From the IMG/VR virus record IMGVR_UViG_3300030333_008647, positions 1-47,765 of that record: 47,765 nucleotides of DNA. The stretch is one strand, 5' to 3'. The position numbers and the translations under genes were made by a program. The notes beneath the pieces are model-generated. The model was not told where the DNA came from. It ran no database searches and saw only the letters and a program-made list of their open reading frames with translations. Source of the DNA: a virus. This document shows positions 23,360-45,009 of the stretch, piece by piece. Numbering within the stretch: position 1 is the stretch's first letter; each line of letters starts with the position of its first letter.

Positions 23360-24145
23360 TTAAAGACCTAGTTGGCCCATGTCGACATCTTCATCTTTGG
23401 CGGGGCTATAATCAGGTGACTCAGGTTCGGCGGGGCTTGGTTGCAACTCTTCTTCAAAACGATCAAAATATAATTTAAGATTGGTTAATAAATAATCTCT
23501 AAACTCATTTCTATCACTTTCATCAGCATATATATCTTCATACGCATCTAAGATTTGTTTTTCTACTTTATTAAAAGTTGTAGCAGCAAAATTTCTTCCA
23601 GTGATGTCCATATTTGTAATATCTTGAAAATTGTCCGCAGTTTCAGTTTCAACTTCTTCGACTTCTTCATCTTCAGGTCGAGCAGGTATAAATTTATCTT
23701 CTTCTACGTCGATGTCGTCGCTTTCAATGTCGATAGGCACATCAACCTCTTCGGCTAAATCTTCTGCTGCTTCATCACTAGCTTTTAAATTAATAGTAGA
23801 GGGTTTTAAAGAATTATCTACCGCATTTAGAATATGCGCTCTAAATGAATCTCTTTGTTCTTTAGAAGTAGTAAGCTCTTTGTAGGCATCTTCAATGATA
23901 GGAATAATGTTTTTAAGCAAAGCTCTAAGAGCATTTATTCCAGTCGATCTTTGAGGTTGTTCATCTGCTACGTCAGCCGATAAAGCTTCTTTAACCATAG
24001 AACGTATAATTTTACGAAATCTATTTTCTTCTAACATTTTTTTATCTTTTTTCTCATTTAGAAATTCTTTTAGAAGACCTCGAAGTACTTTACGTAAACG
24101 TTGTTCTTCTTTTATTTCATTTAAAAATTCATCGCGATTGATCAT
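23360..24145 (-). CDS. Acidic unknown protein with leader-like helices and an internal duplication
   Basis: 261 residues. The N-terminal 60 residues contain three amphipathic segments of the window's leader type (EFLNEIKEE, LRKVLRGLLKEFLNE, FRKIIRSMVKEALSAD). Two later segments look duplicated: IIEDAYKELTTSKEQRDSFR... and ILDAYEDIYADESDRNEFR..., each followed by a helix of similar length. The middle and end are very acidic. This composition suits a prohead scaffold or core-type protein (inference); no known domain seen. Confidence 0.75.
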   Translation of the reverse strand: MINRDEFLNEIKEEQRLRKVLRGLLKEFLNEKKDKKMLEENRFRKIIRSMVKEALSADVADEQPQRSTGINALRALLKNIIPIIEDAYKELTTSKEQRDSFRAHILNAVDNSLKPSTINLKASDEAAEDLAEEVDVPIDIESDDIDVEEDKFIPARPEDEEVEEVETETADNFQDITNMDITGRNFAATTFNKVEKQILDAYEDIYADESDRNEFRDYLLTNLKLYFDRFEEELQPSPAEPESPDYSPAKDEDVDMGQLGL

Positions 24146-24148
24146 TAG

Positions 24149-26278
24149 TTATACCCCAAGTTTCTGTAATAAATAGTTTAACGCCTCGTTAACTTCTTTC
24201 TCTTTTAGTTTTCTTCTTCGTTTCGGCTTACCTATTGGACCAGCAGACCCAGCAACGGCTGCAGCGACCGTTGTCTCTTCAAGATCTTCATCATTTTCTT
24301 CCAAATCACCTTTTTCTTCCATAGAATAAGCTATAGCGACGGCTTGATCTGTTGGATATCCTTCGTCTTTAAGTTTGGGAATCTTTTTAGATACTCTCTT
24401 CCTACCAGCTTTGCTGACTTTGGTTTTTTTCTTTTTTTCTTCCAGTACTTCTTCAACTAACCCACGAAAAATACCCATAAAGTGATGGGTGTCCTCCTGT
24501 AGTTTTTCTTTTACCATATCAGCTATGACATCTGTCTTATCTTTTGATTCATCAGGAATAAATCTATCAATATCTTCGTTATTACGTAAAGCATTGCGAA
24601 AATCAGTAGCATTTAATTCTTCGCCCATTGGGCAACATGCATATTTTAGAGGATCAAGAACTTCAGCATCTTTAACATATTTTTGAACATTTCCAGCAAA
24701 TCTTTGCGCAGCATCACCACCCTTGGTGCTAGCCCCTAATATAATTTTTGTTCCTTCCATCTCTGGGTTGTTGCCATATTCCATCGCTGCTTGTACAGGA
24801 GAAGGATATTCTGAGATCTCAATATTAACATTGTCCAATCCAGCATCATTAACATACATTTGTAACAGTCTTTCAGACACATCGGCAGTAATTCCGTCTT
24901 TTTCAATCGGACTAATTAAAACTACCACTCGATCAGCATATTCCAAATAGTGTTTAATCATATCTAAATGGCCTTTATGCGCCGGCTTGTATTTCCCCGG
25001 TAAAATAGCTACTATTTCTTTGCCATAATTGGCTTCGTTTTGATCTCCAAGCGCTTCTTTTACCATTTGGGGTATCTTTCCCCGTCCATATCGAAATAGG
25101 CCCAAAAGTTGGTTCATTGGGGCAAAATTTCCGGTAAATTTATACATCTGCCCTTCGTGTTGGAACACAAAGCCTTCTACAACCGTATCAATGTTATCAT
25201 GATGCTTTAATTTTGTGAGTTGTTTTACTAAAATATCATGCGCTATTTCTTTATCTGGCCCTTTATAATCTTTTATAGCTACAATTGCCTCTTCTGTTTC
25301 TTTTTTTAATCTTCTAACCTCTGCGTGATTATCTAAAATGTAAGCGCTTTTCAAGCCACGCAACAATTCAACTGCTAAATCGTGAATAGCTGCTTCGATG
25401 GGATAAATTAATTCTTTAATTATTATTTTAGAGCGTTTATTGTATTCTGAAGCTTTCTGTTTTACCTCTTGAGGCATTCCTTTAGTAATCTGAGGGGTAG
25501 TGGGAGATCCTTTTATACCTAACATGCGATTGGTTAACATTTCTCTGCGACTTTCATCAAGCTCAGGTAATTCTTCTTCTATTTTTAAAAATATTTTATT
25601 TTTTAGAAAATCTTCAATTGTCATATCACCGCTATAACCGGTTGACTGTATTTGATCAAGAGTGCGGTTGATTATTTCTTCATCCGTAATACGATTTAAA
25701 TCTAAAAATGCCGTGCGTCGAAGACTAAAAGACTCATCAGCTGCAGCCTGCTCAAATTTATCAATAACTTGATCTAAAAACTTACCTTGTTGTAAATTAT
25801 CAACAATTTCTAAGTTATTAGTAGCAGAATTATATTTTTTATGGCCCATATGATGAATATTTAAAATATTTTCATCGTAATTAACAACATTTTTCGCAAC
25901 AGGCCCTTGAATCTCGGTATTATAGAAAATTTCACCCCTAGGTCCGAAGATTTGTGCCTTTTCTTCCTCGGAAAGCGTACTTACGGCCTTTTCATATGCT
26001 TTAAAAGCAGAAACATAAGCATTTTTAGCTTTTTCGCCACCCTGAAACTTACGATTGACTAAATCTTCCATAGTCATGCCACCTTTAGCCATATCACCTT
26101 TGTTTCGCGCTGCCCGTGCCCTACCATCAACAAAACCAAGAAAAATGTTATATCCATCAGTCTTTTCGGTCCCAATAAGCTCACCATTGGCTGCTTTTTG
26201 GATAATTTCCGCCATTTTGTTGTAAGTTAGGTTACGATTATCGTAAAGATGTGCTAAATGTCCTGCTACACCGCCCAT
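24149..26278 (-). CDS. Large fusion: ligase-like KxDG domain plus HxGH nucleotidyltransferase
   Basis: 709 residues. The N-terminal part (AGHLAHLYDNRNLTY ... GTEKTDGYNIFLGFVDGRAR) resembles the DUF6267-type phage domain, where EKTDG looks like the KxDG nucleotidylation motif of polynucleotide ligases. Around residue 420, VAILPGKYKPAHKGHLDMIK has the HxGH site of cytidylyl/adenylyltransferases, with ILGASTKGG as the second nucleotide motif. Next comes FRGLVEEVLEEKKKK and a lysine-rich DEGYPTDQAVAIAYSMEEKG helix common in phage proteins. It lies among leader-bearing genes, so it may be packaged. Activities are predicted, not known. Confidence 0.78.
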   Translation of the reverse strand: MGGVAGHLAHLYDNRNLTYNKMAEIIQKAANGELIGTEKTDGYNIFLGFVDGRARAARNKGDMAKGGMTMEDLVNRKFQGGEKAKNAYVSAFKAYEKAVSTLSEEEKAQIFGPRGEIFYNTEIQGPVAKNVVNYDENILNIHHMGHKKYNSATNNLEIVDNLQQGKFLDQVIDKFEQAAADESFSLRRTAFLDLNRITDEEIINRTLDQIQSTGYSGDMTIEDFLKNKIFLKIEEELPELDESRREMLTNRMLGIKGSPTTPQITKGMPQEVKQKASEYNKRSKIIIKELIYPIEAAIHDLAVELLRGLKSAYILDNHAEVRRLKKETEEAIVAIKDYKGPDKEIAHDILVKQLTKLKHHDNIDTVVEGFVFQHEGQMYKFTGNFAPMNQLLGLFRYGRGKIPQMVKEALGDQNEANYGKEIVAILPGKYKPAHKGHLDMIKHYLEYADRVVVLISPIEKDGITADVSERLLQMYVNDAGLDNVNIEISEYPSPVQAAMEYGNNPEMEGTKIILGASTKGGDAAQRFAGNVQKYVKDAEVLDPLKYACCPMGEELNATDFRNALRNNEDIDRFIPDESKDKTDVIADMVKEKLQEDTHHFMGIFRGLVEEVLEEKKKKTKVSKAGRKRVSKKIPKLKDEGYPTDQAVAIAYSMEEKGDLEENDEDLEETTVAAAVAGSAGPIGKPKRRRKLKEKEVNEALNYLLQKLGV

Positions 26279-26701
26279 TTAAGTTTCCTTTAAATTCACT
26301 GGTCTGTTTTCTTCGTTGTATGCTTCTATTACCGCATCTAGATCTATAACTGCTTGAGCGGCATATTTATTTTTAGCGCTCTGTTTTTTTAATTCATCAC
26401 GGAAATTTTTTATTCTTTTATCAAAATTATAACGCTCCGGAATAACACTCAAAATAAAATTATGCATTTTAATTGCAATATTTTTTATCTCAGGATCGCC
26501 AACACCAGCGCCAAAATCATCTTTTGAAAAAGCACGCTTTAAGCCCCGATCTCCGTAGTAATCGAGTAGGGCCTGTGAGAGGCTTTTGACATCCTTCGCA
26601 ACGTTGCCCGGATGAGTTGGAATTTCGTCGGTCGCGTTGCTGTCCAAGTTTTCCAATTCTTCCTTGATAATTTGTTTAAGTTTTGATTTAGTGAGCTTCA
26701 T
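26279..26701 (-). CDS. Unknown protein with MKLTKSKLKQIIKEEL leader
   Basis: 140 residues. It begins MKLTKSKLKQIIKEELENLD, the clearest copy of the leader that recurs in this window. The body (ALLDYYGDRGLKRAFSKDDF, ERYNFDKRIKNFRDELKKQS) is helical without a known domain. Its stop directly precedes the 709-residue gene and its start overlaps the 26698-26955 gene by 4 bases. Predicted head-internal cargo by leader alone. Confidence 0.75.
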   Translation of the reverse strand: MKLTKSKLKQIIKEELENLDSNATDEIPTHPGNVAKDVKSLSQALLDYYGDRGLKRAFSKDDFGAGVGDPEIKNIAIKMHNFILSVIPERYNFDKRIKNFRDELKKQSAKNKYAAQAVIDLDAVIEAYNEENRPVNLKET

Positions 26702-26955
26702 ACGATGGTTCCCTCTTCTAATATCTTGACTTGTTCTTCTAAAAGTGTTATTCTTTCTTCAAGTTTTTTATTTAATCGCTTTATTTCGTGGAGATGCTGT
26801 TTTGCTACACTTAATTGTCTGTTTTCTTTTTGGCTTTTTGGGCGAACTTCGTCGAGAATACGGATAACCGATTCGACATATGCGCGCACGGAGGGCTTTG
26901 CAACCCCTTCATCTAGTAAAAACCTTCTTGTTAAATTATTAAGGTTTAATTTCAT
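26698..26955 (-). CDS. Small leader-type coiled-coil protein
   Basis: 85 residues. The N-terminus MKLNLNNLTRRFLLDEGVAK is helical and ends in LDE-G, which fits the T4 prohead protease rule (L/I-x-E before a small residue). The rest is a heptad-rich coiled coil (KQHLHEIKRLNKKLEERITL). Function unknown; part of the same coupled run. Confidence 0.72.
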   Translation of the reverse strand: MKLNLNNLTRRFLLDEGVAKPSVRAYVESVIRILDEVRPKSQKENRQLSVAKQHLHEIKRLNKKLEERITLLEEQVKILEEGTIV

Positions 26956-26956: not shown

Positions 26957-27703
26957 TTATTTCTCTGTTGCTAGCTCTTTGATAATGTCTTGAATAACTT
27001 CGCGAAGTTTTTGCTCTTCAAGTTCTTCTTTCTCATCTAAAACCTTTTGTTTTGCTGCAGCAGATTGTGGGTGTGCTTCTAGATCTTCACCTAACTCTTC
27101 TTCTTCAAGTTCTTCCGGTGTCTCTTCTAGTTCAGCAGTAGCATAATCAGATTTGGATAAGTCATAACTTCCCATACCCTCTGTGAGAAACGAGCCCTCT
27201 TTAGGAGCAAAGCCCCATTTTTCCATTAAAATCTCGTTCATTTCGTTGTTTTTCCACTCTTTAATAGACATTTTAGTATCTCCTTGGTTGTCTGTTGTAT
27301 AAATAGTTTCATAAAGTTGTTTATTTGTCTTTTTTAGATTATCTTCCCAATCTCTAAAGCACATGTTGCCAACTTCATAAGCTTCACGCTCCATTTCACG
27401 CATATGGCCATCTTCTTGTGCGTACCCTTGAGTAGTGGGACCAGCATTTTCTAAATCACCACGCTCATTCTGTAAATGATGTACCATTTCATGCGCCAAA
27501 GAACGCAAACAATCTTTCATGTGTCGCCCTGTGATATATATAGCAATAGATTTTTCCGCTGGATCATAATAGGCTGTTTTTCCCAAAGGATTTTCACTAT
27601 TTTGTGCATCTTCTAGGAATTGAATTGACGGTGTGCTTTGAATATTATGTCGTTGTTGAAAAAAATTGACTAAACTATCCGCATATTTATTAATATTATT
27701 CAT
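26957..27703 (-). CDS. Zinc metallopeptidase-like protein (HEMVH)
   Basis: 248 residues. DCLRSLAHEMVHHLQNERGD near residue 70 is an HExxH zinc site; the downstream EREAYEVGNMCF could supply the third ligand. The remainder is an acidic tail with SFLTEGMGSYD (LTE-G, a possible prohead-protease site) and a C-terminal leader-like helix KLREVIQDIIKELATEK. It looks like a peptidase fused to a packaging signal at the C-terminus (inference). It is preceded by one copy of the AACTAATTA motif 8 bases before its ATG. Confidence 0.78.
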   Translation of the reverse strand: MNNINKYADSLVNFFQQRHNIQSTPSIQFLEDAQNSENPLGKTAYYDPAEKSIAIYITGRHMKDCLRSLAHEMVHHLQNERGDLENAGPTTQGYAQEDGHMREMEREAYEVGNMCFRDWEDNLKKTNKQLYETIYTTDNQGDTKMSIKEWKNNEMNEILMEKWGFAPKEGSFLTEGMGSYDLSKSDYATAELEETPEELEEEELGEDLEAHPQSAAAKQKVLDEKEELEEQKLREVIQDIIKELATEK

Positions 27704-27751: not shown

Positions 27752-28768
27752 TTAGATTGTGTGAGGAGAACGCGAAAAATAAAAATTGTCTACTAGGGTA
27801 TCTTGTAATGCAGTTTCAATGTGTGATTGAAGTCCGATTTCACTTAAAAAGCTTACCTTGGCTTCTCCTTTTTTACATGTTCCTTTATAATCATAAACTG
27901 ACCATTGCTTTACTTCTTCTAAAACATCCATTTTATTGACTACCAAATGGGTAACACCATTAATTTTAGCCGCTTTTTTTAATAATTTCATACTCATCCA
28001 ATTTACTTGTCGTTGGCGCCCCGTTGTAGCACCATATTCATGTCCTACTTTTTGAATCTTATCAAATATTGGGTCATCACCTTGAAATTCTTTAGCACCT
28101 ACATATGTTTCATAAGCCTTTGCCACTCCCCATACATTTCTGACTGCTTGAGGAGGAACACCATTCATTAAGGCCGCTGCAGAAATACAATTTGAAGAAG
28201 TAACATAAGGATAGTCACCCCAATCAATGTCTAAACCAAACCCTTGAGCACCTTCAAATAAAATTTTTATTTCTTTATCGTTTTCATGAAGCTCTTGATA
28301 AATATTAATTAAATAAGGTTCTAGTTCCGGAATATCTTTAGCTCTTACGCCTGTTCTAGCAAATTTATCGCGATAAGCTGGGCCATTACCACGTTTTGTG
28401 GTACCAATGGTTGTATCTTTGCCATCTTCTTTAATATGCTCTTTAGTGATAATATGTGCGTTATCTGCTACAAAAATCAATCCCTTTGTTTCAATACCGC
28501 CATCTTCTAATTCTTTTATCTCTCGAAAAAACTGATCAACGCTGAGAACGCAGCCAGGACCGATAATAGACTTAACACCGAAAAAAACACCAGCAGGGAC
28601 ATGGTGTGTGATAAACATCTTTTCATTGTGATATATAGTATGACCAGCGTTACAACCACCATTATATCTGATTACATGTGTATAATTTTCTGTTTTACAA
28701 AGATGATGAGTCACCTTTCCCTTACCACAATCTCCATATTGAAGATCAACGACAATATCTGCTAGCAT
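27752..28768 (-). CDS. purA: Adenylosuccinate synthetase, short (archaeal/phage-like) form
   Basis: 338 residues from ATG 28768, chosen because GGAGGT stands 4 bases upstream; the ATG at 28780 overlaps that site. The P-loop reads LQYGDCGKGK (usually QWGDEGKGK), then RYNGGCNAGHT with the catalytic His, IGTTKRGNGPAY, EGAQGFGLDIDWGDYPYVTS and ATTGRQRQ. It joins IMP and aspartate using GTP, the first step to AMP. The length is near that of archaeal PurA and phage PurZ, about 90 residues below E. coli. The general-base Asp is kept, so PurA is favoured over the dGMP-using PurZ. Confidence 0.9.
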   Translation of the reverse strand: MLADIVVDLQYGDCGKGKVTHHLCKTENYTHVIRYNGGCNAGHTIYHNEKMFITHHVPAGVFFGVKSIIGPGCVLSVDQFFREIKELEDGGIETKGLIFVADNAHIITKEHIKEDGKDTTIGTTKRGNGPAYRDKFARTGVRAKDIPELEPYLINIYQELHENDKEIKILFEGAQGFGLDIDWGDYPYVTSSNCISAAALMNGVPPQAVRNVWGVAKAYETYVGAKEFQGDDPIFDKIQKVGHEYGATTGRQRQVNWMSMKLLKKAAKINGVTHLVVNKMDVLEEVKQWSVYDYKGTCKKGEAKVSFLSEIGLQSHIETALQDTLVDNFYFSRSPHTI

Positions 28769-28818
28769 AGAAACCTCCATTGTTAGAAATAAATTATAAC
28801 ATATATAATTTTACTACT

Positions 28819-29146: not shown

Positions 29147-31189
29147 TTAAGGATTTGTTTTCTTACCGCCACAAGCGGTTTCATCTAAAATCTCCAAAAG
29201 GTTATTATACATAGTAAGGACTTGCATGGTTAAAGGAAACACTTTGCCACCAATACCAGCTTCGGTCAAGGAGACATAGTTATCCGGCATGAATAAATCT
29301 AACAACCATTGTTCTGTGAAAGCATAAATAGACAATTCATCAGCCGCATTAATCATGTTGATTAAAATACTTTCCGTTATTTTAGGTTGAAGGTAAGACT
29401 GCCCCTGTTCGTCTGAAAACAATATAATTACATGTTTTGCATCATCCCTCCAGCTTATATTCCATTCTACTGCTGGCGGCAGCGATTCTTCTGTGGCCCA
29501 ACCAGTCCATTCAAGATCTTCTAATGGATAAGGAAGTTGTGAAGCTCCAACAAGATTATGGATAGCGAGATATATTGCGTCATAATTTTGTTCATCTCCA
29601 CCCTTCGTAGAATAACCCGCCGTTTGAAAGATATTCATAAATGTATCAAAATCTACCAAATCAGTTTGTAAAACAACTTGTTCTTGTGCCCATCCTTTTG
29701 CGCTAGCTGTAAAAACAAGACCCCACTTAACAACATCTGAATCGCTATAGTGAGTAGCAAATTGATTTAATGCCAACATTACAGCATTAATTTCTTCAGC
29801 CATGGAAGCAGAAAGATCTATAATAAAGAGAATATCCGTAGGTTCAAGTTCTTTATCCTCATCAATTTTACCATCGCAGTTGGTATCCGTACCATTGCAA
29901 ATATCTTCAGGTTCAGGCGCCACTTCACCCAGACACATTTTTGGCATAAAACTACCAAGATCATCATAATTTCCCCATTTTCCTTGAAAACAAATCATCT
30001 CCCCCGGCACACATATCCCTACATACATTGTTTGAGGTGGACCGCTATAACAACCAGCAACCAAATCTTCATCTACTTGTTGATTACAGTTGTCATCATG
30101 ATTATTACATTCTTCTGGTTTAATTTCTCCTAAATATTTATCACAAATCTCTCCTGGTTTGAGTATTTCTGGCAACCAATAACATTTAGCCAAACACGAT
30201 GTCATTTGTGCTTGTGCACACGTGGGATCATTAGGGTCTACACATTCACATGTTCGATATCCTGCGCCACATACCAAAGGGCTTTCCTGACAAGGAAAAA
30301 GAGTACCCACATCATTTTTAGTACATAAACAATTCAAACCCTCATCTATATCACCATCACAGTCATCATCCTGTCCATTACATATTTCAGCTTGAGGTTT
30401 TTTAGCTGCACAATACCAACTACCGTTGATACAATAGTTTAAATTTTCTTCGCACTCTGTGGAACATTTATCTATTAAATCTTCATCAACTTGGCCATCG
30501 CAGTCATCATCAATACCGTTACATACTTCATCTGGTACTTGTCCACAACCGCCACACGCATTCAATTGAAATTCATCGACGTCGCCATCACAATCGTCGT
30601 CTATTCCATTACAAACTTCTTCCGGTTCTTTACCACACCCGCCGCATGCGTTTGCCACACCATTGTCTATCACACCATCACAATCATCATCAATAAAGTT
30701 ACATTCTTCTGGTTTGCAATTTGTTTTACATTTGGTATAATATATATGTCCTTTGTCGCATGTTTTATCTTTAAAACCCGGATATCCTTCATCAGTAACA
30801 CATGGTATATCTTTTTCTATAATATGATTAGTGGGATCGCACTCTAGCAATTCTTCACATTTACCTTCCAATACAACACTGGGTGGATCGGTACAGTGGT
30901 CAATACATATTTCTTTTTGCCATATCTCATCTAAAGGTGGGCAAAAATAATAATCGCATTTAATACAATCTTGCTCATAGGTATCAGGTTCAGATACTTC
31001 TACATCTCCACCGCTAGCATCTTCTTTAGAAATATCTAGTAAAACATCTACAGGGGTGTTAACATCCGGATATGTATATTGTGGGGGGTTTGTTGCGGGC
31101 CCGTCTTTATTTTCAGTGCAGGAAACTATTAAAAATATTGTAATTAATATCGCTGTTAAGTAAAAAAATAAAGTTTTTAGGGTAGACAC
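29147..31189 (-). CDS. MopE-like repeat lipoprotein with von Willebrand A domain (GTG start)
   Basis: 680 residues from GTG 31189 (AGAGG 8 bases upstream). A lipoprotein signal ends LIVSC near residue 24. Six copies of a CNGxDDDCDGxVDE calcium-type repeat follow (for example CNGIDDDCDGQVDE, CNNHDDNCNQQVDE, CNGTDTNCDGKIDE). The C-terminal third is a VWA domain with the MIDAS motif DLSASM (ILFIIDLSASMAEEINAV). Such repeat proteins are typical of Myxococcota and related bacteria. A phage copy, probably host-derived, could be surface exposed for adhesion, exclusion or lysogenic conversion (inference). Confidence 0.85.
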   Translation of the reverse strand: MSTLKTLFFYLTAILITIFLIVSCTENKDGPATNPPQYTYPDVNTPVDVLLDISKEDASGGDVEVSEPDTYEQDCIKCDYYFCPPLDEIWQKEICIDHCTDPPSVVLEGKCEELLECDPTNHIIEKDIPCVTDEGYPGFKDKTCDKGHIYYTKCKTNCKPEECNFIDDDCDGVIDNGVANACGGCGKEPEEVCNGIDDDCDGDVDEFQLNACGGCGQVPDEVCNGIDDDCDGQVDEDLIDKCSTECEENLNYCINGSWYCAAKKPQAEICNGQDDDCDGDIDEGLNCLCTKNDVGTLFPCQESPLVCGAGYRTCECVDPNDPTCAQAQMTSCLAKCYWLPEILKPGEICDKYLGEIKPEECNNHDDNCNQQVDEDLVAGCYSGPPQTMYVGICVPGEMICFQGKWGNYDDLGSFMPKMCLGEVAPEPEDICNGTDTNCDGKIDEDKELEPTDILFIIDLSASMAEEINAVMLALNQFATHYSDSDVVKWGLVFTASAKGWAQEQVVLQTDLVDFDTFMNIFQTAGYSTKGGDEQNYDAIYLAIHNLVGASQLPYPLEDLEWTGWATEESLPPAVEWNISWRDDAKHVIILFSDEQGQSYLQPKITESILINMINAADELSIYAFTEQWLLDLFMPDNYVSLTEAGIGGKVFPLTMQVLTMYNNLLEILDETACGGKKTNP

Positions 31190-31242: not shown

Positions 31243-31596
31243 TTAACTAAATTCTTCTGCTTTTTTTGGTAATTGTCTAATTGAAACAGAGGTAATTCGG
31301 TCTCCCTCTTCGTCTTTTAGGGTTTTAATCTTGTTTTTAAGTTTTTCTAGGTAAACAATAGAATTAGCCGGTTCCACATAAAAACGCACCGAAAGTTTCA
31401 TTAACTTTTGCCCTTGTTCATCTTTTTGAATTTTTTCAGTCGAACGAATAACTGTGACACCTTCAATACCTCGAATTGCTTCGAAAACTTTACCATAAAG
31501 TTTTGTATTGCTTTCTGCTCTTACCAAAAGCTCGGCATGATAAACCTCTTTTGATTCGACAAGAAAGTGTTTAAAATTTTCAACTAAATTTTTCAT
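31243..31596 (-). CDS. Leader-type protein with ACT/ferredoxin-like pattern, unknown
   Basis: 117 residues. The leader MKNLVENFKHFLVESKEV ends in LVE-S, close to the T4 prohead protease rule. The body (HAELLVRAESNTKLYGKVFE, IRGIEGVTVIRSTEK, QKLMKLSVRFYVEPA) is a beta-alpha-beta pattern like a small ferredoxin-like fold. No catalytic residues recognised. A good AGGTG ribosome site precedes ATG 31596. Confidence 0.72.
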   Translation of the reverse strand: MKNLVENFKHFLVESKEVYHAELLVRAESNTKLYGKVFEAIRGIEGVTVIRSTEKIQKDEQGQKLMKLSVRFYVEPANSIVYLEKLKNKIKTLKDEEGDRITSVSIRQLPKKAEEFS

Positions 31597-31609: not shown

Positions 31610-31942
31610 TTACCACGCCTTACACGACCAATAACGTGCTTTCCATTTTGGACCTGGGTTTTTACAATTATGTCTGGCTCTAAATGATTTTCTAGCTTTA
31701 GGGTTTGATTTTCTAATCTTCATATTGGGATCTCCAAAATTTACTTTTACGACATTTCCTTTGTCGTTCTTAACATAAACTTTGGATTTTTTAACATCAC
31801 CCCGCATAGGCTTGTTTAAAGTAACTTTACGACCTTGATATTCAGCCTCTTCAATCACCTCGCCTTCTGCTAACATTTCATAATAAATATTTTCTAATTC
31901 TTCTTGAATCATTTCTTTTAATATTAACTTTGAAACTTTCAT
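31610..31942 (-). CDS. Leader-type protein with cysteine-containing basic C-terminus
   Basis: 110 residues from ATG 31942 (MKVSKLILKEMIQEELENIY), which follows the previous stop by one base; an earlier ATG at 31978 lies inside that gene. The leader is followed by MLAEGEVIEEAEYQ, with two L/I-x-E sites before Gly or Ala. The C-terminus SFRARHNCKNPGPKWKARYW is a strongly conserved basic motif of marine phage proteins (from memory). Candidate packaged DNA-binding protein. Confidence 0.77.
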   Translation of the reverse strand: MKVSKLILKEMIQEELENIYYEMLAEGEVIEEAEYQGRKVTLNKPMRGDVKKSKVYVKNDKGNVVKVNFGDPNMKIRKSNPKARKSFRARHNCKNPGPKWKARYWSCKAW

Positions 31943-31943
31943 T

Positions 31944-32186
31944 TTATTTCTTTTTTCCTCTTTCGGGGTCATCATCATCCTTCATTTCGTGACCATGGCC
32001 CTCTTCTAGAGTAGGTTCAATGTCTTCGGCCAATAAATTACGTACAATCGTATTGCCAAATTTCATATCATACACCCCAATATCACCATTTTCATTCAAA
32101 GAATGCCAAAGAACGGTACCTTTAGCATCTTCTTCTGAAATGTCGTATCTTTTCATTAAAGCTGAACTCAGCTTACCTTCTTTCAT
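31944..32186 (-). CDS. Acidic phage protein, in frame behind a separate leader peptide
   Basis: 80 residues. ATG 32186 follows directly on the TGA of the 42-residue leader ORF (32187-32315) and is in the same frame. The body YDISEEDAKGTVLWHSLNEN is compact, and the end is acidic and His-rich (EEGHGHEMKDDDDPERGKKK) with LLAED and LEEG as possible prohead-protease sites. It has no strong ribosome site of its own, so translation probably depends on coupling or on readthrough of the TGA. Confidence 0.75.
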   Translation of the reverse strand: MKEGKLSSALMKRYDISEEDAKGTVLWHSLNENGDIGVYDMKFGNTIVRNLLAEDIEPTLEEGHGHEMKDDDDPERGKKK

Positions 32187-32315
32187 TCATTGATGCTCAA
32201 CTTTCTCAACGGCATCTTCGACGTCTTTTTTAAGCTTTGATTTAAGCTTAGTTAGGTCGGTTTTCTTGACCTCTTCTTTTATAATCTCTTTTAATTTTTG
32301 TTTGGTTAGTTTCAT
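32187..32315 (-). CDS. 42-residue leader peptide ORF (MKLTKQKLKEIIKEEV)
   Basis: ATG 32315 has AGAGGT 6 bases upstream. The product starts MKLTKQKLKEIIKEEVKKTD, continues as a lysine-rich helix and ends VEHQ at TGA. It is the same leader seen at the N-terminus of 26279-26701 and 44743-45009, but here a stop separates it from the next ORF, which starts at the very next codon in the same frame. Either a stand-alone helix peptide or the N-terminus of a readthrough protein. Confidence 0.7.
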   Translation of the reverse strand: MKLTKQKLKEIIKEEVKKTDLTKLKSKLKKDVEDAVEKVEHQ

Positions 32316-33506: not shown

Positions 33507-34601
33507 TTACTCCAAGCTTCCCCCAAAACCAATCGGCGCTGATTTTGAACGCTTATAGGAGGGTTTTTTCATTTTTCCTCCTACATTATATTTATTTTTA
33601 CCACCACCAATTAAGCGTATTTTCATCTTACGATGGTTTTGTTTTACAGCTTTTTGAAAATCTTCGGTTTGTTCTTCAACTGAAACTGCTTTATTAATGG
33701 CAGATTTTAAATTATGTCTCATATCAACACCGGATATATCCCTAGGGTTGATCCATTTGTATTTTATATGTTCTTCAGGTTGAAGTTTAATTGTTCCTAC
33801 GGGTCGTGGGGCTTGATAGAAGGTAACATTTCTGTCTTTATCAACAAGCTTTAAATCTGATAAGTCTAAATTTGTTTCTTCTTTGGTTTCTCGCTTACAA
33901 CCGTCTAGTTGACTTTCTCCATAATGAATATGTCCACCCGGCAAATCCCAATTATTTTCTCCCTCTGAGCGTTGAAGTATTAAAACTTTTCCTTCGTCAT
34001 CTCGAATAACAACTTTAGATACTTTTTTAGAATCTTGTGATTCATTATTTTCAGTAACCGAAGTGTTTTTGTAGGGATCAGATAAAACTGTTTTTATACC
34101 AGCTTCTTCAGCAGCTTTTATTTCTTCTACATCATCATCATGATGAATTGCTGATTGCAATTTTTTCAATACATTTACTTTTAAACTTCCATTTGTGAAT
34201 ATAACCGCCTCGGGATCAAGATTGTATTCTTTTACAAATTTTTCAACCGGCATTTGAAACTCTGGAAAATATTTTTTATTTGGTGTTGAACTAGGCAAGT
34301 AAGTATACCATTGATTTTCATCATCTAGAAATTCTTGATGTCTAGAGGTTACAATATATACTTTGTATCCTTGGTCTTTATATTTTTTATATCTTTTAAT
34401 CATTGGCAAGTGCGGCCCATCATGAACCCAATCATCTTCTTCATCACCCCAATGAGATAAAGACAATGTATCGTCAAAATCAAAAGTAATAACTTTATCT
34501 TCTATTTTTTCTTGTAAACCATCAGGTTCCATATAAGGATGTTTTTTTAAATAAGTCATGTGTTTACGCCAGTTTTCTAACAATGCTTTCATTATTTCCA
34601 T
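33507..34601 (-). CDS. HAD phosphatase-NUDIX hydrolase fusion with leader
   Basis: 364 residues. The leader MKALLENWRKHM (second ATG, residue 4) matches the MKLLFENWRKY leader of 42426-43295. Residues about 35-190 are a HAD domain (ITFDFDDTLSLSHWGD; IVTSRH; AIHHDDDVEEI). Residues about 195-305 are a NUDIX domain with the full box GHIHYGESQLDGCKRETKEE. The tail RSKSAPIGFGGSLE is a recurring phage motif. NUDIX enzymes split nucleoside diphosphate-linked compounds; the HAD part removes phosphate, so the fusion could clear a signal nucleotide after delivery (inference). Confidence 0.83.
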   Translation of the reverse strand: MEIMKALLENWRKHMTYLKKHPYMEPDGLQEKIEDKVITFDFDDTLSLSHWGDEEDDWVHDGPHLPMIKRYKKYKDQGYKVYIVTSRHQEFLDDENQWYTYLPSSTPNKKYFPEFQMPVEKFVKEYNLDPEAVIFTNGSLKVNVLKKLQSAIHHDDDVEEIKAAEEAGIKTVLSDPYKNTSVTENNESQDSKKVSKVVIRDDEGKVLILQRSEGENNWDLPGGHIHYGESQLDGCKRETKEETNLDLSDLKLVDKDRNVTFYQAPRPVGTIKLQPEEHIKYKWINPRDISGVDMRHNLKSAINKAVSVEEQTEDFQKAVKQNHRKMKIRLIGGGKNKYNVGGKMKKPSYKRSKSAPIGFGGSLE

Positions 34602-36504: not shown

Positions 36505-36914
36505 TAATCTGTTAATCCTGAACCGGTTAAATCATACATGTGGCTAACATCGATATTGGTTAGCGAAGCGTAAAGCTCAAAGCCACTAGTAGCATTTAAA
36601 GCATGAATAAATATTTCTTTACATTTAACGTCAAAAGTAATACTATCTCCACTAGAATCTAAAGTAATATAATGTTTTCTGCTTTCTACTTGACTGTTCG
36701 AGCCAGTAGAATTAAAAGTAATTCCAATAAGAGGATCGCCCGTACTACCAGAGGCAATTACCGTAACTGTTTTGGTTATAAAGGGAAAAGTAACTGCTAC
36801 CTCTTGTTCGTTTGCTATGGTTGATCCTGTTACATAGGGGTGTCCAGACACTTGAAATGATCCTGCGTTTCTTAGACCAACTCCGTACTTATAATTTGTA
36901 AAATTATGTGACAT
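36504..36914 (-). CDS. Beta-rich phage structural protein
   Basis: 136 residues, beta-strand-rich with many Ser/Thr/Gly. The opening NFTNYKYGVGLRNAGSFQVS and FPFITKTVTVIASG are close to a virion protein common in marine phages (from memory). A GAGGAG ribosome site stands 8 bases before ATG 36914, and an AACTAATTA motif lies just upstream. Probable head decoration or tail/fibre component, made together with the LamG protein. Confidence 0.75.
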   Translation of the reverse strand: MSHNFTNYKYGVGLRNAGSFQVSGHPYVTGSTIANEQEVAVTFPFITKTVTVIASGSTGDPLIGITFNSTGSNSQVESRKHYITLDSSGDSITFDVKCKEIFIHALNATSGFELYASLTNIDVSHMYDLTGSGLTD

Positions 36915-36992: not shown

Positions 36993-37793
36993 TTATTTTT
37001 TATAGGCTATATACTGTTTGTTTTTTTCAAACAAAGACATGGACGCATCATAAGACAATCTCCTCAGTTCAGAAAGTTTTTTAAGATATTCATTTCTGCG
37101 TAATACTTTAAAAACTAAATTTTCTACAGAGTATATCCCACCAGTTTCTAAGCCAGTTTTGCGATATCTTTTAATTTTTTCCATTATCGCATCACCAGTT
37201 TTTTTCGCTAATATATATTCCTTTTCGGCATATATATCATAAACATCATCAATTTCTTCCATCAATTTAGCTGCTTTTTGCTTAACAGCGGCATGATCTA
37301 TTTCAAACCTATATCGTGACGGCTGTTTAAGCCATCTATTTTCCATTAAAGAATATATGCCATTGGCTACATGTGGTTCATTACTATCTTGAATGTAAAT
37401 TTCAACTTCATAACCTTTTAGGAGAATATAATGAATATCATTCCATGCTCGGGTTTTCTCTTTAAAATAGTCTTCCATTATTGATAAGTTAGATAATTCA
37501 TTAAAATCAATAAGTATATGAAGATCAAAATCTGACATTTCTGACCAATTGTAGCTAGCCAAAGAACCAGTAAGAATAAGATCTTTTATCTCTATGTGTG
37601 AGAGATCTAAACTTTCGAAAAATTCATAAGCAATTCGTTCTGCTGCTGCAAGAACATCAGGCTTCATTTTATCCCTAAACCATAGTTCAGGGGGAAGAGT
37701 TTTTTTGGATATAAGAGAGGTGGTATCGATTGAATCTGGATCGATTAATTCTTCAAGATATGCTTTCCAAGAGTTCCAATTATTTGAGTTCAT
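36993..37793 (-). CDS. Nucleotidyltransferase-fold protein with leader-like start
   Basis: 266 residues. LILTGSLASYNWSEMSDFDL followed by HILIDF is the GS...SDxDxH motif of the polymerase-beta nucleotidyltransferase superfamily; a third acidic residue is likely in EVEIYIQD. The N-terminus WNSWKAYLEELIDPD resembles the window's leader helices. The C-terminal half is helical. It could transfer a nucleotide to protein, RNA or a small molecule; target unknown. Confidence 0.78.
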   Translation of the reverse strand: MNSNNWNSWKAYLEELIDPDSIDTTSLISKKTLPPELWFRDKMKPDVLAAAERIAYEFFESLDLSHIEIKDLILTGSLASYNWSEMSDFDLHILIDFNELSNLSIMEDYFKEKTRAWNDIHYILLKGYEVEIYIQDSNEPHVANGIYSLMENRWLKQPSRYRFEIDHAAVKQKAAKLMEEIDDVYDIYAEKEYILAKKTGDAIMEKIKRYRKTGLETGGIYSVENLVFKVLRRNEYLKKLSELRRLSYDASMSLFEKNKQYIAYKK

Positions 37794-39855: not shown

Positions 39856-41118
39856 ATGAGTGATGATATATTAGGTGGGAGCATTATGTTGTGTTCGTTT
39901 TGTGGTAAAAGTAGAAAAGAAGTAAAAAAAATAATAACTGGCCTGAATGTACTAACTAACATTTGCAATGAGTGTGTAGACTTGTGTCATGAAATATTAG
40001 AGAATGATAAAAAAAGAGAAGATGAAATAGATAAAAAAGTTTCTGAGGAAGAATTTCATGAAATGCCAACCCCTCACGAAATCAAAGATCTTTTAGATCA
40101 AACTGTAATTGGGCAATACAACGCCAAAAAAGTTCTTTCTGTCGCTGTATATAATCATTATAAAAGAATTGCCGATATAAAAGTTGCAGGAAACTCATCT
40201 AAACTTAAGAAAAGTAACATACTCTTAATTGGTCCTACAGGTTCAGGAAAAACCCTTCTTGCTCAAACCTTGGCAGAAATACTAAATGTCCCAATTGCCA
40301 TTGCAGATGCCACAAGTTTAACAGAAGCTGGGTATGTTGGTGAAGATGTTGAAGGAATTTTATCTAGATTATTAGTCGCTGCTGGTAATTCTGTAAAAGC
40401 TGCCGAAAGAGGCATCGTGTATATTGATGAAATTGACAAGATTGCTTTAAAATCTGGTCGAATGGGCAACACGCGAGATGTTTCCGGAGAGGGAGTTCAG
40501 CAGGGTTTGCTAAAAATTTTAGAAGGTACAGTAGCTAATGTTCCCAAAGGAAGCAAACCCAAAGCAACCCGCGAGACAGTAAGAATGGATACTAGCAATA
40601 TATTGTTTATCTGTGGTGGTGCTTTTGTGGGCTTAGAAGAGTTTGTCACAAAAAGAATTGACGGTAACAAATCAGTAGGCTTTGGATCACGAAGTGAAGA
40701 AAATAATAAAAATAAAAACTTAAATTATACAGCACAAGACTTACATGATTTTGGTATGATTCCAGAATTAATTGGTAGAATTCCAATCACAGCTAATTTA
40801 CAAAAATTAACAGAAGAAATGCTTGTACAAATTCTCACAGAACCAAAAGATAATCTAGTCTCTCAATATGAAAAAATATTTGCTATAGATGGCACCACTT
40901 TAAGATTCTCCCCAGCATCCCTGCGCGCAATTGCTAAAGAGGCAATTGAACTAAAAAGCGGTGCGAGGGGCCTAAGATCAATTATAGAAAATATTTTATT
41001 AGATTCAATGTATGATAGTCCAACTTATAAAAACATATCTGATATATATGTTGATGAAACTTGTATAACAAAAAATATGAGACCAATGTATATTTGTGAA
41101 GAACCACCTCAAGAATAA
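39856..41118 (+). CDS. clpX: ClpX, ATP-dependent unfoldase
   Basis: 420 residues on the plus strand, full length. The N-terminal zinc domain is intact (CSFCGKSRKE ... ICNECVDLC, four cysteines). Walker A LLIGPTGSGKTLLA, pore loop GYVGEDVE, Walker B GIVYIDEIDK, and the sensor/arginine regions PELIGRIPI and KSGARGLRSIIE are all present. ClpX unfolds tagged proteins and feeds them to ClpP; no clpP is seen here, so it would use host ClpP or act alone. GAGGAG ribosome site 8 bases upstream. Together with the phage tmRNA it suggests a phage-owned tagging and unfolding route. Confidence 0.95.
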   Translation: MSDDILGGSIMLCSFCGKSRKEVKKIITGLNVLTNICNECVDLCHEILENDKKREDEIDKKVSEEEFHEMPTPHEIKDLLDQTVIGQYNAKKVLSVAVYNHYKRIADIKVAGNSSKLKKSNILLIGPTGSGKTLLAQTLAEILNVPIAIADATSLTEAGYVGEDVEGILSRLLVAAGNSVKAAERGIVYIDEIDKIALKSGRMGNTRDVSGEGVQQGLLKILEGTVANVPKGSKPKATRETVRMDTSNILFICGGAFVGLEEFVTKRIDGNKSVGFGSRSEENNKNKNLNYTAQDLHDFGMIPELIGRIPITANLQKLTEEMLVQILTEPKDNLVSQYEKIFAIDGTTLRFSPASLRAIAKEAIELKSGARGLRSIIENILLDSMYDSPTYKNISDIYVDETCITKNMRPMYICEEPPQE

Positions 41119-41768: not shown

Positions 41769-42146
41769 ATGACAACTTGTATAGTATATATGCTGTTTGG
41801 AGGGCTGACGTTTGCTACGTCTGGCTGTCATTCACAATTGTTTTATGGCGATAGGGTAATTACACCACACAAAGTGGTATATACTTCACACATTGATGAT
41901 TATTATCATGGCCATGGCCATTATGTTAGTAGGCATCGTGTAAGAATAAGACCTCACACTCATCGTGTAAGGCATCACCATGTACATAGAAAATATAGAC
42001 ATCGTGTGAAATATCATCACAAGAAAAAACATTATCGCAATCGAAAGCCGGTATTACGTAAGCGTGTGGTGACAAGACATTATAACAAGAAAGGTAAACT
42101 AAGAAAAAGAGTAGTTAGGCGTCATTATAAAAATAAAAGACACTAA
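41769..42146 (+). CDS. Histidine/arginine-rich predicted lipoprotein
   Basis: 125 residues from ATG 41769, chosen because AGGAGG lies 7 bases upstream; a longer frame starting at 41691 has no such site. Signal MTTCIVYMLFGGLTFATSGC ends in a lipobox (TSGC). The mature part is packed with His and Arg (YYHGHGHYVSRHRVRIRPHT; RHHHVHRKYRHRVKYHHKKK) and ends in Lys/Arg repeats. It could bind metal ions or lipopolysaccharide in the periplasm (inference). Convergent with 42143-42352, with interlocked stop codons. Confidence 0.78.
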   Translation: MTTCIVYMLFGGLTFATSGCHSQLFYGDRVITPHKVVYTSHIDDYYHGHGHYVSRHRVRIRPHTHRVRHHHVHRKYRHRVKYHHKKKHYRNRKPVLRKRVVTRHYNKKGKLRKRVVRRHYKNKRH

Positions 42147-42352
42147 CCTTTAGATGCATGAAAAGCATCTAAGATTTCTTCACAATGAGCGCGAGAGTCA
42201 CATTCTCTCCAAACACCACCTTTTTTATTATTTAAGATAACCCATCCGGATTTTCTTTTACGGATGCATCCCTTTTCAGAATCAGCACATCCTTTTCCAT
42301 CAGCCTCATTTAACTTTTCTTCATCGTCATCAAGGAAATACTTTCCTTCCAT
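42143..42352 (-). CDS. Small cysteine-containing phage protein, in frame behind a leader peptide
   Basis: 69 residues from ATG 42352. GKGCADSEKGCIRKRKSGWV and KKGGVWRECDSRAHCEEILD give four cysteines and a compact alpha-beta pattern seen in marine phage proteins (from memory). The 21-codon leader ORF 42359-42424 is in the same frame, separated only by TGA and two codons (Pro, Glu). No clear ribosome site of its own. The reading suggests a leader-plus-body protein interrupted by TGA. Confidence 0.75.
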   Translation of the reverse strand: MEGKYFLDDDEEKLNEADGKGCADSEKGCIRKRKSGWVILNNKKGGVWRECDSRAHCEEILDAFHASKG

Positions 42353-42358: not shown

Positions 42359-42424
42359 TCACTCATATAGTGTGGTAAGCTCTTCCTTGATTAATTGTTT
42401 AAGCTTAGTTTTTGTTATTCTCAT
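42359..42424 (-). CDS. 21-residue leader peptide ORF (MRITKTKLKQLIKEEL)
   Basis: Encodes MRITKTKLKQLIKEELTTLY and a final Glu, then TGA (42361-42359). It is a close copy of the recurring leader but ends before the body. The next ORF starts 6 bases on in the same frame. It follows the stop-start region of the 42426-43295 gene by a base. Stand-alone function is doubtful; more likely the N-terminus of the downstream protein by readthrough, or the result of a nonsense mutation. Confidence 0.65.
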   Translation of the reverse strand: MRITKTKLKQLIKEELTTLYE

Positions 42425-42425: not shown

Positions 42426-43295
42426 TTAGTTTCCTTTTTTAGCAAGGGTTTTGCCATAATCTAACGTTTTAGTCATAAACCCTTTTACTTTAACAGTCTC
42501 TTCCTTGTACCATGCCATAGTACGTTCTCCGATATCAACCCAACGTGAAACCAATTCTTTTCCTTGTTGTGAAGTAAGCTCTTCCCCGGACCCGGTTTGA
42601 GTCCAAGCTTCTTTGAGACCTTTGTATAATAGGCGAAGTCCTTTATCAACTTGTTCCGTTTTTTTCATGAAATCATGAGGAGTTTTAGAATTATGAAGCT
42701 CGTCAATTTGCGCAAGTAATTTATATAGCGCGCTTGAGTTTCCCCCTTTTGCTTCTCTATTATCTATAATATCCACCAACTGGCCTTTCATTCCATCGAC
42801 AATGGTGTCATCTAATGGCTTACCAGAGCGATATAGTTTAGCTTGAGCTTCGTTTTCAATGAGAAAAGCAAAAGCAATATAAAAAGCAGCGACGATTAAA
42901 GTCCATTTTGCAATTTTACAAATTGTGGGAAACTGATCGCAGAAATCATCTAATTTGCCTACAAGCCAATTGATTGACTTAAGTGCCATCAAAGCATTTC
43001 GTTTAGCTAGTTCAACCAATTGTATTGATTTTTCTAACACCCAATCATTAACTTTTTCCCAACCCTTAGCTAAAAGCCCTTCTCGTTCATGAGGAGGTTT
43101 ATAGTTTGGATCGGCTGTTCTTTCAGCTTCTTTTTCCCAATTAATCTCTTCTAGTTTTTTTAACTCTAGAAGCACCATGGCTTCCCACTGAGAAAACAAT
43201 TCCTGATCGGAAATGAGCGATTTTTGATGTTGCTCACACATTAGTTCAAAAGGGGCAGTATTATATTTTCGCCAATTTTCAAATAAGAGTTTCAT
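42426..43295 (-). CDS. Leader-type protein with a membrane segment
   Basis: 289 residues. The leader MKLLFENWRKYNTAPFE matches MKALLENWRKHM of the HAD-NUDIX protein. A hydrophobic segment near residues 130-152 (WTLIVAAFYIAFAFLI) may cross a membrane; the flanks are charged helices. No enzyme motif seen. It could be a membrane-active cargo protein used at genome entry (inference). Confidence 0.75.
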   Translation of the reverse strand: MKLLFENWRKYNTAPFELMCEQHQKSLISDQELFSQWEAMVLLELKKLEEINWEKEAERTADPNYKPPHEREGLLAKGWEKVNDWVLEKSIQLVELAKRNALMALKSINWLVGKLDDFCDQFPTICKIAKWTLIVAAFYIAFAFLIENEAQAKLYRSGKPLDDTIVDGMKGQLVDIIDNREAKGGNSSALYKLLAQIDELHNSKTPHDFMKKTEQVDKGLRLLYKGLKEAWTQTGSGEELTSQQGKELVSRWVDIGERTMAWYKEETVKVKGFMTKTLDYGKTLAKKGN

Positions 43296-43884: not shown

Positions 43885-43910
43885 CGCATATGCGTTTGCT
43901 AGTTAACTAG
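43885..43910. other. Two adjacent perfect palindromes downstream of tdk
   Basis: CGCATATGCG (43885-43894) and CTAGTTAACTAG (43899-43910) stand four bases apart in the 193-base gap 43719-43911, directly after the tdk stop. They could be protein-binding sites or an RNA structure. The rest of the gap is AT-rich with a T8-9 run and no gene that can be supported. Confidence 0.5.
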
Positions 43911-43911
43911 T

Positions 43912-44445: not shown

Positions 44446-44461
44446 ACCACCTCCATAATAT

Positions 44462-44494
44462 AAAAAAATAGGGGGCAATTTCTCACCCCCTATT
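44462..44494 (-). terminator. Rho-independent terminator
   Basis: On the minus strand AATAGGGGG and CCCCCTATT form a 9-bp stem around a 10-base loop, followed by a run of T. It lies after the cysteine-rich peptide gene and just before tdk, so tdk would need partial readthrough. The strongest classical terminator seen in the window. Confidence 0.85.
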
Positions 44495-44532
44495 GTTAAG
44501 ATTCTAATTTACTTTTTTAGAAAGTAAAAGCT

Positions 44533-44604
44533 TTATTTCTGCTTGCAGCTGCAATCACATTTACATTCGCAACCACCGCAGCAGTTTAGATCTTGTTTAT
44601 CCAT
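44533..44604 (-). CDS. 23-residue cysteine-rich micro-protein, metallothionein-like
   Basis: ATG 44604 is preceded by GGGAGGG at 7 bases, an excellent ribosome site, and the frame ends at TAA (44535-44533). The product is MDKQDLNCCGGCECKCDCSC followed by KQK: seven cysteines in 13 residues, mostly as CxC. This spacing is typical of metal-binding metallothionein-like peptides (Zn, Cu, Cd). It lies between tRNA-Trp and a strong terminator, so it is transcribed with the leader gene 44743-45009. Too short for ordinary gene finders. No homologue known to me. Confidence 0.75.
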   Translation of the reverse strand: MDKQDLNCCGGCECKCDCSCKQK

Positions 44605-44664
44605 ATCATGACCCTCCCTGTTGATAACTAGTAGCGCTATAGCATTACTCCATCGAGCATTACG

Positions 44665-44740
44665 TGGCAGGGCACGAGGGAATCGAACCCCCAACCCCCG
44701 GATTTGGAGTCCGGTGCTCTGCCAATTGAGCCAGTGCCCT
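44665..44740 (-). tRNA. tRNA-Trp (anticodon CCA)
   Basis: 76 bases with CCA encoded. Acceptor stem AGGGCAC/GTGCCCT, discriminator G, D stem GCTC/GAGC, anticodon stem CCGGA/TCCGG with loop CTCCAAA, T loop TTCGATT. All stems pair. Phage-borne tRNA-Trp may support translation of W-rich late proteins. The anticodon reads UGG, not UGA. Starts 2 bases after the stop of the 44743-45009 gene, so it is cut from the same transcript. Confidence 0.95.
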
Positions 44741-44742
44741 TT

Positions 44743-45009
44743 TTATTTAATGGTATCAAATTGAGCGCCCAGATCTTCGGCTTTTGAAAAATCCCCTTGT
44801 AACAGAGCCTCGTATTGTTCGTCTGTAGTTACAACGACCAATTCGAATTCGCTCGGCTCATATATAGTATGTTCACCAGAGTATGAAGGCTGTTTAGTCA
44901 CTAACACAGTATATTTCATACCTTCTCTTTCTTTTTTAGCTTTGTATTTTCCAAGATCGATAACTTCTTCTTTGATGATTTGTTTAAGTTTTGATTTGGT
45001 TAGTTTCAT
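44743..45009 (-). CDS. Unknown protein with MKLTKSKLKQIIKEEV leader
   Basis: 88 residues beginning MKLTKSKLKQIIKEEVIDLG, almost identical to the leader of 26279-26701, although the bodies are unrelated. The body is a small alpha-beta protein (KYTVLVTKQPSYSG, FELVVVTTDEQYEALLQGDF). GGAGGT ribosome site 5 bases before ATG. Probable packaged protein; function unknown. Confidence 0.77.
   Translation of the reverse strand: MKLTKSKLKQIIKEEVIDLGKYKAKKEREGMKYTVLVTKQPSYSGEHTIYEPSEFELVVVTTDEQYEALLQGDFSKAEDLGAQFDTIK

Follow-up and report, generated by a model that had tools for sequence, protein, structure and literature searches.

Short exchangeable start sequences very probably mark unrelated proteins of marine T4-like phages for packing into the head

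The window analyzed here is a stretch of 47,765 nt from the 56,681-base IMG/VR virus record IMGVR_UViG_3300030333_008647, and it carries on its minus strand a series of genes for unrelated proteins that open with related short sequences, termed leaders in the following. Sequence comparisons indicate that these start sequences very probably mark unrelated proteins of marine T4-like phages for packing into the head. In phage T4, internal proteins reach the prohead core by means of propeptides of 10–19 residues, and the protease gp21 cuts after L/I-x-E (PMC9026906, PMC5694885). The leaders are, in all likelihood, capsid-targeting propeptides of such a T4-type head system, which would load cargo into the prohead and be cut by gp21. 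According to this scheme, an N-terminal amphipathic helix would dock the nascent cargo on the prohead core (the scaffold gp22 and its partners), and an activated gp21-type serine protease would cut after L/I-x-E, at or just past the helix. The freed body would stay in the head with the DNA and could be delivered to the next host. The helix comes in several versions: class 1 (MKITKxQLKQIIKEEL), class 2 (MKLLFENWRxYLxE), and a T4-like form (MKxFxxFLxEA) in cyanophages.

A preliminary description of this DNA had placed one leader on a dozen proteins. The N-termini that it quoted were all found on the minus strand, including MKLTKSKLKQIIKEEL/V at 26701 and 45009. A 24-position leader profile was built solely from the leaders of other phages and run on the 56.7-kb record, where it finds five significant class-1 copies (26701, 42424, 45009, 32315 and 31942). 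Because a profile derived from other phages finds five copies at E-values (E) of 5e-13 to 5e-5, the recurrence is beyond chance. The idea of a single leader was not borne out, as at least two classes are present: the starts at 31596, 34592, 37793 and 43295 are of the F/W-x-x-Y/F-L-x-E type (class 2). The leaders, leader-like helices and adjoining bodies of the window are listed below; ORF stands for open reading frame and aa for amino acids.

26654..26701, minus strand: class-1 leader MKLTKSKLKQIIKEEL of gene 26279-26701 (140 aa; body without assigned function), E 5.4e-13
44962..45009, minus strand: class-1 leader MKLTKSKLKQIIKEEV of gene 44743-45009 (88 aa; the homolog in contig L388 starts MKLTKKQLIQIIKEEV), E 1.5e-9
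32187..32315, minus strand: class-1 leader mini-ORF of 42 aa, starting MKLTKQKLKEIIKEEV and ending ..VEHQ, with its terminal TGA directly before the body ORF, E 7e-8
31944..32186, minus strand: body MKEGKLSSAL.. (80 aa), in frame after the TGA of that mini-ORF
42359..42424, minus strand: class-1 leader MRITKTKLKQLIKEELTTLYE (N-terminus MRITKTKLKQLIKEEL), then TGA at 42359-42361, in frame with the next gene, E 1.6e-10
42143..42352, minus strand: body MEGKYFLDDDEEKLNE followed by ADGKGC.., a small domain with an LNE site at the boundary; homologs elsewhere are fused to a leader with no stop
31895..31942, minus strand: class-1 leader MKVSKLILKEMIQEEL of gene 31610-31942, with LAE-G (residues 23-25), a C-terminal ARHNC..YWSC module and PHROG matches, E 4.6e-5
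26908..26955, minus strand: leader MKLNLNNLTRRFLLDE followed by G, of gene 26698-26955; homologs have W..FLNE versions
31555..31596, minus strand: T4-type leader MKNLVENFKHFLVE followed by S, of gene 31243-31596; the homolog in contig L250 has MKDFVHNFKHFLTE followed by T
34557..34592, minus strand: class-2 leader MKALLENWRKHM of the HAD-NUDIX protein 33507-34592; homologs have MKNAFENWREYLKE and MKLLFENWRKYLNE
43263..43295, minus strand: class-2 leader MKLLFENWRKY of the membrane-type protein 42426-43295; the homolog in contig L251 has MKLIMENWRKYN
37749..37793, minus strand: class-2-like leader MNSNNWNSWKAYLEE of the nucleotidyltransferase 36993-37793, predicted as a disordered or free helix
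33472..33501, minus strand: short start MKLRIIKEVG of gene 32335-33501; homologous bodies elsewhere have class-2 leaders
24437..24478, minus strand: internal leader-like helix MGIFRGLVEEVLEE in the 709-aa KTDG-ligase-like/NMNAT protein 24149-26278
23981..24145, minus strand: tandem leader-like helices ..RFRKIIRSMVKEAL.. at the start of gene 23360-24145; relatives keep EExxLRxxIRxLIxE
26960..27019, minus strand: C-terminal leader-like helix EEQKLREVIQDIIKELATEK of the HEMVHH peptidase 26957-27703

The L/I-x-E sites of the window leaders are LLDE-G, FLVE-S, LAE-G and TTLYE, and the copies at 26701 and 45009 hold only an internal I-K-E14. The MKVSKLILKEMIQEEL start at 31942 lies at a Met within the longest frame, 31610-31978. 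At 26955 the start is of class-2 type in relatives, and MSLDKAWKDFLNES stands on the same body; the 10-aa start at 33501 is too short alone for a class call, and homologous bodies have MKLLFENWRQYLTEE. Several details of the preliminary description needed revision. The zinc peptidase 26957-27703 has no N-terminal leader and bears the C-terminal helix instead; the two short ORFs at 32315 and 42424 do carry leaders, each followed by an in-frame body after a single TGA. Domain searches matched the HAD and NUDIX domains of 33507-34592, and the body called DUF5872-like found no confirmation in Pfam and matches PHROG families of unknown function.

Class 1 was searched in IMG/VR with a degenerate DNA pattern encoding M-K-[LI]-T-K-x-x-L-K-[QE]-[LI]-I-K-E-E, and the class-1 counts given here are those among the matches listed. 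The pattern often occurs 2–5 times per contig, class 1 opens at least 135 mutually unrelated bodies, and most large leader-bearing records hold 5–13 copies. Residues 16–24 lie outside the search pattern, so their composition is unbiased; the residues seen there are L/I at 16, E at 17, V/I/L at 19, L at 20 and E at 22. An L/I-x-E motif ends at residue 21 or 22 in 59 of the 135 leaders, compared with about 1% per position further on. Its residues are coupled in register, both for positions 20 and 22 (odds ratio (OR) 5.9–14.7; L/I/M/V20 with E22, OR 14.7, p 3e-11) and for L/I19 with E21 (OR 4.0, p 6e-4), with no cross-register coupling. The motif is present in 73 proteins, compared with a mean of 39 and a maximum of 53 in 2000 column shuffles. 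Coupling of this kind points to a protease P3-x-P1 site and is not expected from an amphipathic helix alone. G is enriched after the E of the motif (0.22 vs 0.08). No class-1 leader was found in cultured cyanophages, and a tblastn search of cultured phages with the bare 22-aa leader returned nothing, probably owing to low-complexity masking.

Class 2 was scanned with the pattern MK-x-[LI]-[LMF]-E-N-W-[RN]-[KEQ]-[YF]-L-x-E, the [LIMV]-x-E positions being outside the searched pattern, and it opens 94 unrelated bodies. In 85 of these 94 leaders [LIMV]-x-E has a fixed place: in 76 it ends at E14, and the other 9 have an extra residue that moves the end to E15; other positions have 0–5. The bodies represent many enzyme families with one member each, among them M23 peptidase, NUDIX, RNase T, GNAT, zeta-toxin-like kinase and HAD. 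Both classes occur together in four contigs, and they replace one another on homologous bodies. HAD bodies start with MKNAFENWREYLKE, MKLLFENWRKYLNE or MKLLLENWREYLKE in different phages, NUDIX bodies with MRLLIERFNKFLME, MKYSWKTFLNE or SNWNTFLTE, and homologs of the 26698-26955 body have LTRRFLLGE or AWKDFLNE in front. Proteins with the ARHNC..YWSC module carry class 1 in contigs L087 and L059 and class 2 in L358, L416 and L379, and the KYDVWPSAYASGA family likewise shows exchanged leaders on homologous bodies. Since homologous bodies bear differing leaders, the leader is a module independent of the body.

The small GKGC..GWVILNNKK domain (42143-42352) serves as a natural control, in which the boundary site can be followed in different contexts. 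In a first group of loci, L/I/V-x-E stands at the domain boundary in 17 of 18, whatever lies upstream, a leader or a long other protein; in a second group, with unrelated starts, it stands there in none of 12. A gp21 gene was found in 10 of the 16 tested records of the first group and in 0 of 12 of the second (p 0.0009), a weak absence because the second-group records are mostly small. In the window, the 42424 leader has LYE-TGA at the presumed cut site, and other phages fuse the homologous body straight to the leader. The TGAs of the two mini-ORFs lie at 32187-32189 and 42359-42361, and in the MKEGKLSSAL family an in-frame TGA separates a leader mini-ORF of either class from the body in 26/26 homologs, one of which (L465) lacks the usual start codon after it. 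Contig L018 has at 11918-11983 a YE-TGA-PE junction like that at 42424, with no Met soon downstream. A programmed TGA could set the packaged fraction, readthrough or stop-restart giving a tagged form (packed and injected) and an untagged one (early and cytosolic); we regard this as doubtful. For the MKEGKLSSAL family, the TGA-ATG adjacency fits ordinary translational coupling of two separate genes, which is a simpler explanation.

The leaders occur in genomes with a T4-type head. PF03420 (T4 gp21, Peptidase_S77) is matched in 20 of 35 class-1 records, 12 of 20 class-2 records and 19 of the 22 records of at least 100 kb, a subset used since most records are fragments; this co-occurrence is supportive and not decisive. 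Class 1 was present in 9 of 14 large records picked by gp23 or by a homolog of a window protein, not by leader, and in none of 12 contigs picked by a T7-like terminase. Across 13 gp21 records, 49 of 94 leader copies were no more than 15 kb away from gp21, compared with 23 expected (rotation p 0.0056); in others there is a second leader cluster elsewhere. Few leaders lie within 10 kb of gp23 (4 of 80 loci), because they sit further upstream, by terminase and portal. In contigs L150 and L151, leader ORFs are interspersed among the terminase, portal, protease, a small MKKSELKKVIKPLVKECIQEVLIEEG protein, scaffold (L150:18332-19567) and major capsid genes, and in the cultured Flavobacterium phage immuto the starts MKKSQLRQIIKEAL, FDLKKFLVENKLT and LADLLLEES adjoin the head module. 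The major capsid protein of a relative (L155:12861-14804) matches T4-like gp23 (2500 phage records) and is preceded by a scaffold-like gene; the fragment that contains the window is without these.

The search for a gp21-like prohead protease, proposed earlier as a check, was negative in the 56.7-kb record and positive in a 185-kb, more distant relative (G038; E 1.7e-33). The latter encodes the same 709-aa protein, peptidase and neighbours, and its class-1 leaders lie 7–14 kb upstream of gp21. Contigs syntenic with the window (L250, L251 and L254) have the same leader genes. Homologs of 36504-36914 are located exactly between protease and scaffold in leader-bearing relatives, and this gene may therefore be a displaced piece of the head module. 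A ClpX gene (39856-41118, plus strand; NCBIfam E 3e-167) and, outside the window, a ClpP gene (record position 55348-55923; E 8e-92) are both full-length, an unusual pair in a phage. ClpP was rejected as a stand-in head protease, as it has an ordinary ClpP score and falls under the cut-off for ClpP-related head maturation proteases.

Virion proteomics by others bears on the cargo. Virions of the T4-like cyanophage S-CREM2 yielded 52 proteins (PMC10665884). Among them are ORF156, which is 36% identical to the window nucleotidyltransferase 36993-37793 over 214 residues (E 3e-44), and ORF160, which has a KYDVWPSAYASGAVV module in common with 32335-33501, so that homologs of window cargo do occur in virions. 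The N-termini of other virion proteins are MKDFDSFLEE (SAM hydrolase), VKRFDAFLTEE (kinase), ..FASFMAEAA (Cas9), MKNFSSFLTEAD (the cytidylyltransferase ORF154), MKDLHSFLTEQ (ORF13) and MQTFSMFFSED (ORF136). By our reading, which is not that of the authors, all have T4-type targeting starts, and the cytidylyltransferase in S-SZBM1 virions starts similarly with MRFRQFIIEA (PMC9146016). We found no description of a leader in the accessible parts of the S-CREM2, S-SZBM1 and S-SCSM1 reports. The window NMNAT aligns with the S-CREM2 cytidylyltransferase over a short catalytic motif only (E 0.002), and membership of the same superfamily, not orthology, is claimed.

Structure models agree with a separable leader. 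In the AlphaFold2 model of 36993-37793 (predicted local distance difference test score, pLDDT, 78), residues 1–16 have pLDDT<50 and form a free helix outside the core, and in the low-confidence HAD-NUDIX model (55) helix 2–17 is apart from the HAD strand at 34. By these models, the leader does not merely belong to the fold; a leader that was an ordinary piece of a folded domain would, in the preliminary description, have spoken against a packaging signal. Foldseek gave no confident match for the nucleotidyltransferase model (best E 0.014, AadA-like adenylyltransferases).

Several observations weigh against capsid targeting. The 56.7-kb record, a fragment, has no recognisable gene for terminase, portal, protease or capsid and no PF03420 match. 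A gp21 match is likewise missing from three records of at least 100 kb, two of class 1 and one of class 2, and in records G031, G019 and G009 most leaders are distant from the head genes. A strict L/I-x-E is absent from residues 17–31 of 58 of the 135 class-1 leaders, in which I12-K-E14 within the helix and M/V-x-E variants could serve as cut sites. As to the virions, the own leader of S-CREM2 ORF156 (MKKLISELKLTL) is weak, and the S-CREM2 authors note possible contamination by abundant proteins (PMC10665884). Of the 7 S-CREM2 coding sequences that fit a pattern for starts like the T4 capsid-targeting sequence (CTS), 5 are in virions vs 38 of 191 others (p 0.006), but the pattern was framed after those N-termini had been viewed. 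In S-SZBM1 the same pattern gave 1/3 vs 29/215, which is not significant, with three leader proteins and shallow mass spectrometry. The literature yielded no mass spectrometry of any class-1 or class-2 phage. The earlier proposal of a head-packaging peptide cut at L/I-x-E is partly supported: its core withstood the tests applied to sequences, to virion data from related cultured phages and to structure models, and the window proteins would accordingly be packed, cleaved and perhaps injected.

The leader proteins, above all the small lysine-rich ones, might alternatively be parts of the prohead core, like T4 gp67 and gp68, which would be chopped and expelled and not be injected cargo. Many class-1 bodies are indeed only 50–150 aa long with no detectable domain, T4 core proteins are cut at several LxE sites (PMC9026906), and the conserved small protein directly after gp21, which starts MKKSELKKVIKPLVKECIQEVLIEEG and looks like a core component, has the same helix type. 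Class-2 bodies, however, are intact enzymes of many unrelated families, homologs of the window enzymes occur in mature virions, and body families vary between phages, unlike core parts. We consider this explanation unlikely.

A target elsewhere in the cell, such as the membrane, the replication compartment or a phage hub protein, is less probable still. LxE would then be a by-product of an L/E-rich helix. The leaders are amphipathic, some class-1 clusters lie 40–125 kb from the head genes, and 42426-43295 is membrane-like. Against such a target, the in-register covariation of the LxE residues exceeds what column composition gives, the class-2 site has its fixed place after a non-periodic W/F motif, the LxE of the GKGC domain is confined to the phage group in which gp21 was found, T7-like phages are without the leader, and CTS-like enzymes are present in cyanophage virions.

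That the shared start is a nucleic-acid element, either a translation enhancer or a recombination site for gene shuffling, is hardly credible, and codon variation led to its rejection: DNA identity between the copies at 26701 and 45009 is 89% over 44 bases, and leaders stand in tandem gene arrays where 5' homology would aid gene swapping, but the 135 leader DNAs (48 nt) comprise 134 different sequences, synonymous codons are free at invariant residues (K9 AAA 97/AAG 38; E15 GAG 77/GAA 58; four codons for L8), the conservation reaches LxE at the protein level, and leader-like helices are also internal and C-terminal. The diversity of leader DNA and the free use of synonymous codons indicate that selection acts on the peptide.

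The leader genes of the window have PurA-like, ClpX, thymidine kinase, CysK-like and sugar-nucleotide genes in their neighbourhood. The 342-aa adenylosuccinate-synthase-like protein 27752-28780 has PurA as its top match, under the cut-off, and also matches PurZ (3e-41). A predicted lipoprotein of 680 aa (29147-31189) has, by eye, CNGIDDDCDG repeats and a von Willebrand-A-like end, with no NCBIfam match. A stretch of about 15 kb (2387-17607) with genes of sugar-nucleotide and glycosyltransferase type and for a radical SAM/SPASM protein, assigned mostly by eye, makes up a large surface-sugar cassette. In the 709-aa protein 24149-26278, a nucleotidyltransferase half of KTDG ligase type is fused to an NMNAT/cytidylyltransferase half; the two halves apparently are separate in the neighbouring genes 141 (KWDG) and 140 (virion-detected) of cyanophage S-SZBM1. 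Basic or Cys-rich C-terminal modules recur on unrelated proteins, including the C-terminal parts of 33507-34601, 31610-31978 and 32335-33501 (KKPSYKRSKSAPxGFGGS; ARHNC..YWSCKAW; DWFGRKGAKGK..YPACRPTPAACK; KYDVWPSAYASGAVVRCRKGKIW), and some are also present in cultured phages. They are possible second head-retention or DNA-binding signals.

Proteins carried into the host at infection, such as anti-defence factors and take-over enzymes, are known for few model phages. Should the leaders prove to be head-packing signals, what thousands of uncultivated marine T4-like phages carry as cargo would be readable from sequence. Hundreds of small unknowns and stray enzymes (NUDIX, HAD, nucleotidyltransferases, peptidases) would move from "auxiliary metabolic genes" to candidate injected effectors. 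The recurring NMNAT-like and other non-structural proteins in cyanophage virion proteomes would find an explanation, and the leaders would provide exchangeable tags for loading phage heads with proteins.

Among known systems, the internal anti-restriction proteins DarA, Hdf and Ddr of phage P1 are non-structural and packed into the head through the assembly pathway; we know of no short shared leader family among them. In SPN3US and phiKZ, propeptides stand on many inner-head ejection proteins and a gp21-related protease cuts after x-E; the first 15 residues of gp53 and gp54 are identical in otherwise diverged proteins. Those propeptides are mostly >100 residues long with A/S/G-x-E, whereas the leaders described here have 14–24 residues and L/I/M/V-x-E. 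Reports on CsCl-purified virions of S-CREM2, S-SZBM1 and S-SCSM1 list cytidylyltransferase/NMNAT-like proteins and nucleotidyltransferases homologous or analogous to window proteins; the N-termini in S-CREM2 and S-SZBM1 are, by our reading, of T4-CTS type and belong to the class MKxFxxFLTEA, not to class 1 or 2.

The closest likeness is to the T4 CTS of IPI, IPII, IPIII and Alt, a short N-terminal propeptide common to unrelated proteins, enzymes among them, with aromatic or hydrophobic positions followed by L/I-x-E and with a gp21 homolog in the same genomes (here in those of relatives, not in the window record). T4 Alt has propeptides at both ends (PMC5694885), which the C-terminal leader-like helix of 26957-27703 resembles. 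Because the shared peptide, the LxE site and the position outside the fold were found, and the gp21 and gp23-type head only in relatives, we classify the system as a variant of the T4 CTS. Class 1 (MKITKxQLKQIIKEELExVLxE) is longer than T4 MKTYQEFIAEA and not similar to it, and class 2 is closer. T4 has four cargo proteins, unlike the 5–13 class-1 copies of most large leader-bearing records, and differs further in that several leader classes per genome and polyprotein-like LxE-bounded modules are found here, in uncultivated marine phages. The open-access literature, searched apart from subscription journals and preprints, held no description of these leader classes and no class-1 strings, and capsid targeting together with cyanophage led to a T4 review only. 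The system would work like the T4 CTS, and what is apparently undescribed are the leader sequence classes, several per genome, and their many more cargoes.

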